Source of the DNA: a virus
Virus record (IMG/VR): IMGVR_UViG_3300040810_000721
Span: 1 to 29,872 of that record
Reading direction: 5' to 3' (one strand)
Length of the DNA: 29,872 bases
Position 1 is the stretch's first letter, and every line of letters starts with the position of its first letter. The notes under the pieces were generated by a model. That model searched no databases. It was not told the origin of the DNA and saw nothing but the letters and a program-made list of their open reading frames with translations. The position numbers were made by a program, and so were the translations under genes. Positions 2,660 to 23,196 of the stretch are shown one piece after another.

Positions 2660-2693
2660 ATTGCTGTAAGCTAATTGCAGTTAAATTTGCTCA

Positions 2694-3020
2694 ATGGCAT
2701 TCGTCCGCAAAAAGGTCAAGACTTTCAAGTGGCCTGTAACAGTAGAAGAACCTGCTGATGGCGGGGTATTTGATGAATCCAGCTTTGACGCAGTATTCAA
2801 AAGAGTTCCACGGTCTGAGTTCCAGAAGCTTGCAGACAAAGGCGACCTTGAGCTGCTAAAAGCTGTCATGACTGGATGGGAAGGTATCGAGGACGAAGAT
2901 GGGAAGCCGTTGCCGTTTTCCCAGACAGCAATGAAAGAATTTGCTGATGATCCGTATTGGATTCGTGGCGTCCTGAAGGCATATACGGAAACTTTTGAAG
3001 GCGCAAAACTGGGAAACTAA
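2694..3020 (+). CDS. Tail assembly chaperone, short form (gpG-like)
   Basis: 108 residues. It is acidic and helical with the conserved-looking segment MTGWEGIEDEDGKPLPFS followed by WIRGVLKAY. By analogy with lambda gpG it coats the tape measure protein during tail assembly and is absent from the mature virion. It ends KLGN then TAA (3018-3020), immediately after an in-phase G GGA AAC heptamer. The next frame lacks a good start codon and continues as the T-like domain, exactly as in lambda G/GT. It is preceded by the terminator at 2631-2659 and followed by the tape measure gene. Confidence 0.85.
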   Translation: MAFVRKKVKTFKWPVTVEEPADGGVFDESSFDAVFKRVPRSEFQKLADKGDLELLKAVMTGWEGIEDEDGKPLPFSQTAMKEFADDPYWIRGVLKAYTETFEGAKLGN

Positions 3021-3364
3021 AAGATGCCGTCAAGTATTGGGCGAATGGCGGCAAAAAAATAGAAGACAAAAGTGAAGATGACGCAGCGGCATTTGGTTTG
3101 AAGCCGTTGCGTCAGACGGCTCCTAAAGAGGAGCATTTTGAGGTGTGGGAAGAAAATTGGGAAGCGTTGATGATGTTCTTGCGGATGCAAACGCAATGGA
3201 CCGTCACGATGGGAGGTTACGTTGGTTTGAAATATGAGGTTTTGCTAGGTGCGTCGGGACTGATGTCCCTTTATGATGTAGAGAATCCCCGTGAGATGCT
3301 GGAGAGCCTTCAAGTAATGGAAGCTGCTGCACTCTCTGAGCTGAACAAGAAAGATGCCAAGTAA
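2694..3364 (+). CDS. Tail assembly chaperone, frameshifted long form (gpG-T like)
   Basis: Slippage at 3011-3017 would join the 108-residue chaperone to a further 115 codons (3017-3361), giving about 223 residues. The T part contains WEENWEALMMF, TQWTVTMGGYVGLKYE and a leucine/glutamate-rich end. This is the pattern of the DUF1799-type T domains that follow gpG in siphoviruses. The long form is thought to recruit the tape measure protein to the tube subunit. Within the T frame the only early start is a TTG at 3098, well inside the region that looks conserved, so fusion is the better explanation. It overlaps the tape measure start by 11 nt. Confidence 0.85.
3011..3017 (+). promoter_or_regulatory. 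-1 ribosomal frameshift site G GGA AAC
   Basis: The heptamer GGGAAAC sits in phase (g|gga|aac) directly before the TAA at 3018-3020. It differs from the lambda G/GT site (G GGA AAG) only in the last base. A -1 slip enters the frame cta aaa gat, which stays open to TAA at 3362-3364. Stops in the -1 frame at 2945-2950 and 2996-2998 restrict the switch to positions 2999-3017. Confidence 0.85.
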
Positions 3365-21475: not shown

Positions 21476-21751
21476 GTGATTGAGATTTACGCAGCAATCC
21501 TAGGGGCTTCTCTCGGCATAGCTGGGATGAGTGTCTCTGGGTTTACTAGGCGAACCAGCGAAAGCCGTGAAGCGGTTATTCGCCTCACCGCTGGCGTTGA
21601 ATCCATTGCGACTAAGCTTGAAGACTTGCATCAGGACATGAAGGCAGAAAAGGTTCAAGCTACTGCTGATCGCCGTGAAATTTACGAACGGCTGAATGAT
21701 CATGGCAACCGACTAACTGTTTTAGAAACCACTAAGGCTAGAATCGACTAA
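21476..21751 (+). CDS. Small membrane-anchored coiled-coil protein (possible lysis protein)
   Basis: 91 residues from GTG 21476, with the GGAAGGAG-like Shine-Dalgarno at 21458-21464 supporting that start. Residues 3-22 (EIYAAILGASLGIAGMSVSG) form one hydrophobic membrane segment. The rest is a charged coiled coil (SIATKLEDLHQDMKAE, then IYERLNDHGNRLTVLETTKA). One N-terminal membrane segment with a long cytoplasmic or periplasmic coil is seen in holin-accessory and spanin-like proteins. Its location just ahead of the holin-like gene and endolysin fits a lysis role. An XhlA-type protein would have the opposite order (coil then membrane segment), so that family is unlikely. Confidence 0.65.
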   Translation: MIEIYAAILGASLGIAGMSVSGFTRRTSESREAVIRLTAGVESIATKLEDLHQDMKAEKVQATADRREIYERLNDHGNRLTVLETTKARID

Positions 21752-21768
21752 GAATCAACGGCATTCAA

Positions 21769-21918
21769 ATGGGCATCGAAGAAGTTTTGGCGCATCCAGC
21801 CTTTTGGATCGTGGTAGCAGCAGCTAGTGAGCTGATCGGGATGAGTAAGCTCAAAGACAACTCGCTTGTACAGCTCTTGTTTACTGTCTTGCGCTCTTTA
21901 AAAACAAAAAAGGACTGA
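21769..21918 (+). CDS. Small holin-like protein, 49 residues (in-frame product)
   Basis: ATG 21769 to TGA 21916-21918. A short hydrophobic helix (HPAFWIVVAAASELIGM) is followed by an amphipathic, basic end (KLKDNSLVQLLFTVLR, then SLKTKKD). Small proteins of this look (FW..AAASE.IG.SKLK.NS) occur next to endolysins in marine phages, as far as I recall, and may be holins or holin partners. The last codons contain an in-phase A AAA AAG heptamer, and the adjoining -1 frame stays open for 74 codons, so a longer product is likely (see the separate entry). Confidence 0.6.
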   Translation: MGIEEVLAHPAFWIVVAAASELIGMSKLKDNSLVQLLFTVLRSLKTKKD

Positions 21919-22136
21919 TCCCTGCGGATGGGAGGTGGCTTTTTAGATTTTCGACGCGATCACCTCTTGAAGGATTGAAGCGCGAAATTCAACGTCGCAA
22001 ATTCGAGGCAACACTAAAGCCTCGAATCGACGCTGAGGTCGAACGCTGGCATAAGTCGCAGCCACCAGCAATGCCACCGCCTGAGCGGATAGACGACTTA
22101 CACATAAAATCACCGTGGAGCAATGACGAACAGTAA
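21769..22136 (+). CDS. Predicted frameshift fusion of the holin-like protein, about 122 residues
   Basis: After a -1 slip at 21906-21912 translation would continue with GLIPADGRWLFRF, then PLEGLKREIQRRKFEATLK and PRIDAEVERWH. It ends in a proline-rich, acidic tail at TAA 22134-22136, which overlaps the endolysin start by 14 nt. This frame is open from 21849 and contains no ATG, GTG or TTG before TTG 21975, well after the conserved-looking part. Independent initiation would therefore lose its first 20 or so residues. The sequence looks coding: charged, aromatic residues well spaced, no low complexity. I recognise no family. An alternative is a one-base sequencing error in the A6 run that splits one gene. 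Confidence 0.5.
21906..21912 (+). promoter_or_regulatory. Candidate -1 frameshift site A AAA AAG
   Basis: The heptamer AAAAAAG is in phase (a|aaa|aag) four codons before the end of the 49-codon gene; it is the same heptamer as the E. coli dnaX site. A second in-phase heptamer, T TTA AAA, lies at 21897-21903. A small stem (ATCC 21918-21921 with GGAT 21926-21929, tetraloop) starts 5 nt downstream. No strong stimulatory pseudoknot is visible by eye. Confidence 0.55.
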
Positions 22137-23196
22137 GGCAATCTCACTTGAACAGCTCTTTAGGTACTACAAAGGCTTGCCACATCAAGCCGCAAGTATT
22201 TCGCTCCTGGAAGAAGATCTAGCAAGTAATGGTTACGACGCAGCGATGCGACGTGACCGTGAATGGTTTGCGACTTGGAGTCAATCAGGTAAGCAATCTG
22301 ATCACAAGCAAGCATTAGACCTGATTAAAAAGTTTGAAGGATGGCACGCCGAGGCATACCTGTGCCCCGCAGGGTTCTGGACGATTGGGTGGGGTAATCT
22401 GTCTCATCCAGACGGTCGCCCTGTAAGAGAAGGCGACTGGATCAGAAGGAAAGAAGGCGATGCTTTACTGGAAGGCACAGTAGACAAAATTGACGAAAAG
22501 CTTTCGCAGACCGTTCCTTATTGGGCGGATATGGCGGAGAATCAGCAGGCAGCTTTAATCAGTTTCGCTTACAACCTTGGTTCTGGATTCTATGGCTCTA
22601 AAGGTTTTGAGACAATCAGCCAAAAGCTTCGTGCGAAAGACTGGAAAGCTGTTCCTGACGCGATGCTGCTCTATCGAAACCCTGGGAGCAGCTTTGAAGC
22701 CGGTCTAAAGCGTCGAAGGCAAGCCGAGGGAAACCTCTGGAAAGGTGGCGATCAGTCACCGCCTACTGAGACTGCAAAACTGCGCCCTGGGTCTCCATTC
22801 ACCAGTCGGCTGACCCCACACATCACGCTCGGTGAGTTTGCTCTAAATCAAGAAGAGCGGCGCTTTAACGAGCAGTACCAGCTAGACACTGCAGCTACTC
22901 TCGCGGCATTTCTAGAGCGTGTTCGTGGCAGGTTTGGTAGCAAGCCAGTCGTAATCACATCTGGCTACAGACCACCAGCTATAAACAGATCGGTTGGCGG
23001 TGCTAGCGGGTCAGAGCACCTATACCCGGCACCGGGAGTTGGTGCTGTGGATTTTTATGTGCAAGGCGCTGACATTTATGCGGTACAAGAATGGTGTGAC
23101 CAAAACTGGCCGCATAGCTTAGGATATGGAGCCAATAAAGGATTCGTTCATCTCGGTATGCGAGAAGGCGGTCCAAGAATACGCTGGGATTACTAG
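22123..23196 (+). CDS. Endolysin: GH24 lysozyme fused to M15 peptidase
   Basis: 357 residues, cell-wall hydrolase. Residues 1-60 form an N-terminal helical region (QLFRYYKGLPHQAASISLLE), possibly a binding or regulatory part. Residues 65-207 are a GH24 lysozyme with Glu72, Cys81 and Thr87 in the E-x8-C-x5-T arrangement (the C/D variant) and AALISFAYNLGSG. Residues 230-357 resemble zinc peptidases of the M15 group: TSGYRPPAINRSVGGASGSE ending in H299, then D310 (GAVDFYV) and H343 (GFVHLGMR). The protein would cut both glycan strands and peptide stems. No signal peptide is seen, so export needs the holin. It is followed 2 nt later by the dCTP deaminase gene. Confidence 0.9.
   Translation: MTNSKAISLEQLFRYYKGLPHQAASISLLEEDLASNGYDAAMRRDREWFATWSQSGKQSDHKQALDLIKKFEGWHAEAYLCPAGFWTIGWGNLSHPDGRPVREGDWIRRKEGDALLEGTVDKIDEKLSQTVPYWADMAENQQAALISFAYNLGSGFYGSKGFETISQKLRAKDWKAVPDAMLLYRNPGSSFEAGLKRRRQAEGNLWKGGDQSPPTETAKLRPGSPFTSRLTPHITLGEFALNQEERRFNEQYQLDTAATLAAFLERVRGRFGSKPVVITSGYRPPAINRSVGGASGSEHLYPAPGVGAVDFYVQGADIYAVQEWCDQNWPHSLGYGANKGFVHLGMREGGPRIRWDY

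Follow-up and report, generated by a model that had tools for sequence, protein, structure and literature searches.

The locus analysed here raises the question of how an open frame without an early start codon, situated between a gene for a small predicted membrane protein and the endolysin gene, may be translated, and whether a programmed -1 ribosomal frameshift makes two proteins from one start. The window (the whole stretch of DNA that was analysed) is the entire virus record of 29,872 bases, and the features located in it below are all on its plus strand.

The gene, its slippery site and the -1 frame

The 0-frame gene runs from an ATG to a TGA at 21769-21918, belongs to phrog_22542 (unknown function) and has 49 codons, as given in the preliminary description. 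Its 3′ end reads TCT TTA AAA ACA AAA AAG GAC TGA, in which two slippery heptamers had been proposed, T TTA AAA at 21897-21903 and A AAA AAG at 21906-21912, the latter 3 nt before the stop. Both are present and in phase, and only A AAA AAG stood as a conserved site; T TTA AAA is confined to the window and its near-identical relatives, was rejected as the slip site on this ground and is probably incidental. The -1 frame is open from 21849 to 22133, ends with a TAA at 22134-22136 and has no ATG, GTG or TTG before 21975, all of which agrees with the first reading of the sequence. The extension itself comprises 74 codons and the TAA (21912-22136) with the motif DLHIKSPW at its C terminus, so that a -1 slip at A AAA AAG would give 48 + 74 = 122 residues, the size expected earlier. 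The TAA falls within the start of the endolysin ORF at 22123-23196 (phrog_28234, E 1.2e-141), whose beginning overlaps the end of the extension.

A two-helix membrane hairpin is predicted for the 49-residue product by AlphaFold (pLDDT 86, 0-frame part modelled), and a single moderately hydrophobic stretch of 19 residues is given by hydropathy; the basic residues after this stretch suggest, by inference, that the C terminus is cytoplasmic. The extension was modelled as one long helix (residues 18-48) with a disordered tail (pLDDT 76), and the 122-residue form is thus predicted to carry the membrane part of the short form, an added helix and the conserved C-terminal motif. No function was obtained from Pfam, PHROG and PDB searches with both parts, which returned unknown families or chance-level matches only; for the 49-residue product there was no match to holin families, with PHROGs giving only families of unknown function and Pfam nothing credible.

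Slippery site and extension among the homologues

The homologue set consisted of 188 distinct gene versions collected by scans of viral contigs and phage records. The heptamer, placed 0 or 3 nt before the 0-frame stop, together with a -1 frame that stays open for 40 codons or more was found in 112 of the 188, as A AAA AAG in 104 and as G GGA AAG in 8. The extension is absent in 75, and those 75 are also without the heptamer at that place. The remaining homologue (L063, 5120-5150) has an intact heptamer with a -1 TAG just after it, within the extension, where its relative L079 has CAG; it is the only viral-contig homologue of this kind, and true loss and sequence error cannot be distinguished in it. 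This comparison of sequences shows that the signal is conserved along with both frames, and that signal and extension are missing as a pair. An in-phase heptamer kept with both frames intact was what the preliminary description had named as support for frameshifting, and a single continuous frame carrying the extension, which would have spoken for a base error, was found in no homologue examined. A sequencing error is ruled out, since the pattern recurs in over 100 sequences, seven of them from cultured isolates, and since the GGGAAAG sites have no long run of A.

The cultured phages having both heptamer and extension are KBS-S-2A, S-CBS1, S-CBS3, S-EIVl (with G GGA AAG), S-B28, WH11-B and 7B11-B. 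The same arrangement with A AAA AAG is present in three contigs (L328, L329 and L333) binned as Hyphomonadaceae, TMED88 and Planctomycetota genomes, which are probably phage contigs within bacterial bins. Among the relatives with neither heptamer nor extension, the P60-type and S-SRP01-type genes have a different in-frame tail, and the Oinezvirus-type genes, which also have no extension, end in KPKK with the KK codons AAG AAA or AAG AAG; the L240-type genes belong here too and continue directly into the endolysin. The extensions vary widely in sequence and length and share a common order of variable start, helix, Pro-rich stretch and '.I.[AS]PW'-like tail. In the records of S-B28 (L085:3001-3147) and S-EIVl (L086:3004-3144) the 0-frame gene is missing from the annotation; the extension either has no annotation as well or appears as a gene of its own that begins at an internal start. 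More generally, the reference annotations of S-CBS1, S-CBS3, KBS-S-2A, S-EIVl and S-B28 split off or omit the presumed second protein.

In every A-type sequence the base preceding AAA AAG is A. Eight different amino acids are encoded at this codon, and in the loci concerned only 17-60% of their codons have A as the third base. When each of 54 fusion sequences was labelled by its preceding residue and heptamer type, their tree required at least 22 label changes, and the G GGA AAG state by itself needed 3. Third positions show no entropy in the two lysine codons or in the codon preceding them, against 1.3-1.9 bits for the 11 codons upstream of the heptamer. These tallies were made only on sequences chosen for having the heptamer; the unselected contrast is the presence and absence of heptamer and extension among the 188 homologues. 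By these counts the pattern of heptamer and extension is far beyond chance. Read in the -1 frame, the extension has an omega of 0.29-0.30 beginning with its first codon, against 1.5 and 2.0 in the other two frames; by this measure, purifying selection acts on its -1 frame protein sequence. The 0-frame omega of 0.54 is unreliable, the rows being of unequal length and unaligned. As described for the window, the extension lacks a usable start of its own in most relatives; the open -1 frame upstream of the site contains no start codon in 104 of 108.

Proposed frameshift, possible role in lysis and other explanations

From these data we hold with high confidence that a conserved programmed -1 ribosomal frameshift makes the fusion protein; no protein or reporter data exist, and slippage in vivo is inferred. 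Most ribosomes would stop at the TGA at 21916-21918 and give the 49-residue membrane hairpin, and a fraction would move back by one base at A AAA AAG as the tRNA-Lys(UUU) molecules of the P and A sites re-pair from AAA-AAG to AAA-AAA. The slipped ribosomes would then translate 74 further codons into the 122-residue protein, whose C-terminal module (the long helix and the conserved '.I.[AS]PW' tail) is probably cytoplasmic. As both products come from one start, the slip rate would set the ratio of short to long form. A AAA AAG, G GGA AAG and C CCA AAG were the most efficient heptamers with stimulators in E. coli, and the shiftiness of tRNA-Lys(UUU) on AAG has been pointed to (PMC4066793). In a Cyanobium draft genome one tRNA-Lys gene was found, with UUU, and no tRNA-Lys with CUU was present among the 36 tRNA matches in all. 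No consensus downstream RNA structure was obtained by RNAalifold from 29 sequences (zero pairs), and a sliding MFE z of about -0.9 at +20 is weak and non-specific, with similar values elsewhere. Some proven bacterial cases have no established stimulator (PMC4066793). Since none was found here, the efficiency of slippage may be low and cannot be predicted.

The neighbourhood of the gene gives the only indication of its function. An endolysin homologue starts beside the end of the extension in 75 of the 97 loci with enough sequence. A gene for a protein of the kind encoded at 21476-21751, with membrane and coiled-coil parts, precedes the presumed frameshift gene in 94 of 107 loci; in the window it has 91 codons and a GTG start, belongs to phrog_26178, and its product has an N-terminal hydrophobic stretch and a probable coiled coil. 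This neighbour may itself be the actual holin or the partner of it. In podoviruses the frameshift gene stands directly before the small terminase gene, a position which in T7 is occupied by the holin gene 17.5. We consider a role in lysis reasonably probable; the inference is only positional, as no library names the family as holin and as the annotated lysozyme of S-EIVl is not directly downstream. That the long form is a regulator of lysis can be offered tentatively, by inference; it would join the short form in the membrane and tune the release of endolysin as an antiholin or a cofactor of the holin. It is likewise possible, with no greater assurance, that several cyanophage groups (S-CBS1-like siphoviruses, S-B28-like podoviruses and S-EIVl) use the slip to fix the ratio of two membrane proteins of the lysis region, a short one that makes or aids the lesion in the membrane and a frameshifted one, bearing a cytoplasmic tail, that controls when the lesion forms. 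If true, this would be a lysis timer encoded by frameshift, with a tail module that other cyanophages carry as a gene of its own.

The frameshift may instead be real with products that are small membrane proteins of late infection, of unknown role and outside lysis. We regard this as unlikely and keep it under consideration: it agrees with the lack of a holin match, with the annotated lysozyme of S-EIVl being on the opposite strand at a distance of about 1.7 kb, and with the similar tail motif of the T4-GC 410 proteins that cyanomyophages encode near gp3 and uvsY, but it does not account for the frequent adjacency to endolysin or for the T7-like position in podoviruses.

It is improbable that frameshifting mainly delivers ribosomes to the endolysin start by translational coupling, with no functional protein made. 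In most loci the end of the extension does coincide with the endolysin start or lie only a few bases from it, and the extensionless L240-type genes lead straight into the endolysin, as such coupling would have it; however, selection acts on the extension at the protein level and its C-terminal motif is kept, the podoviruses and S-EIVl have the extension with no endolysin homologue directly after it, and the endolysin ATG of the window is preceded by a GGAG of its own.

It is also conceivable that the two parts are two cistrons, the extension being translated alone by reinitiation or from an internal NTG with the heptamer only incidental, and in some relatives the halves appear to be apart. A separate gene is annotated at this place in S-CBS1 and S-CBS3. 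In Cyanobium sp. N5-Cardenillas (L331, 4970-5300), at what is a probable prophage copy, the -1 frame extension is present without a canonical heptamer, its homologue starts with a GTG that overlaps the stop of the 0 frame, and a lysozyme-like frame comes next; from this arrangement the extension there is probably a coupled second cistron. In S-CRES1 (L338:2107-2596) relatives of both halves are the separate adjacent genes gp105 and gp104. The product of gp105, directly before gp104, matches the 49-residue protein (probability 93%, E 3.3e-7), a GC-rich hairpin with a T run resembling an intrinsic terminator lies between the two genes, and gp104 is probably a cistron of its own. As a whole we find the two-cistron explanation very unlikely. 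The first NTG is scattered from extension codon 1 to beyond codon 50, seven sequences have no NTG in the first 60 extension codons, an ATG within the first 30 codons occurs in just 28 of 108 and an SD-like sequence in few. Codons 1-12, which precede any start, show conservation at the protein level (omega 0.30), and the retention of the heptamer would stay unexplained.

Similar tail motifs were also seen in other stand-alone proteins besides S-CRES1 gp104, i.e. S-CAM7 C490910_214, located near a lysin gene, and a protein of Marine virus AG-345-A17, as well as in the T4-GC 410 proteins of unknown function (L334, L335 and L337). The motif takes the form GxFGDEGWSI or GETxLGGxMRLRxPW in these three, in the S-CAM7 protein (L336) and in L339. 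Single matches between the extension tail and the stand-alone proteins are weak (E from about 0.01 upwards), and the profile comparison gave 72% probability and E 3.5e-5 over 38 columns. It is suggested by these matches and by that of gp105, and not proven, that the two halves are separate neighbours in some cyanophages and joined by frameshifting in others.

Transcriptional slippage on the A6 run, giving the second frame without any ribosomal slip, is hardly credible even with runs of at least six A at most sites, since no run in the G GGA AAG form exceeds three bases, the retained base pattern is that of a two-tRNA slip, and six A are short for polymerase slippage.

Comparison with known frameshift and lysis systems

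As a process -1 frameshifting is known, and what appears new is that it serves this gene family, in the lysis region of cyanophages. The preliminary description knew of no such frameshift in lysis genes of this group of phages, and our search of the literature, mostly outside subscription journals, likewise found no published description of one in the cyanophage lysis region. In tailed phages programmed frameshifting is documented mostly in the tail assembly chaperones and other structural genes, and a deeply conserved case in a membrane protein gene of the cyanophage lysis region would be another use of recoding, possibly in the timing of lysis, in phages whose holins are poorly defined.

The tail assembly chaperones G/GT of lambda and 17.5/17.5* of SPP1 resemble the cyanophage case as proposed here: the ribosome slips by -1 at a canonical heptamer shortly before the short gene ends, and a second form extended at the C terminus results. 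The lambda chaperone frameshift also uses GGGAAAG, and that of SPP1 17.5/17.5* has been described (PMC6316719). The cyanophage gene differs from the chaperones in its place beside the endolysin or small terminase gene and in its predicted membrane product, and no sequence relation was seen; chaperone genes stand among the tail genes, before the tape measure, whereas this gene precedes the endolysin. The window has overlapping ORFs with a chaperone-like layout elsewhere (2685-3020 and 2999-3364), with the canonical -1 site G GGA AAC in phase at 3011-3017, directly before a TAA, and a 1600-codon open frame in a tape-measure-like position just downstream.

With dnaX of E. coli and the IS elements the gene shares the A AAA AAG heptamer and, as proposed, the slippage of tRNA-Lys(UUU) on AAG (PMC4066793); dnaX differs by its internal SD and stem-loop (PMC5600365), whereas no stimulator was found here. 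The closest published account concerns frameshifts proposed beside holins and endolysins in Streptomyces phages of cluster BI; these are GeneMarkS predictions in actinophages, and the passage on them describes neither a conserved heptamer nor a relation to this family (PMC9671017).

A functional likeness is seen with lambda S105/S107 and with the SPP1 pairs 24.1/24.1* and 26/26*, the latter two described in PMC6316719, in which two forms of a small membrane protein of the lysis region come from one gene. The holin and antiholin of such dual-start genes differ at the N terminus through the use of two starts, whereas in the two cyanophage forms frameshifting would make the C termini different.
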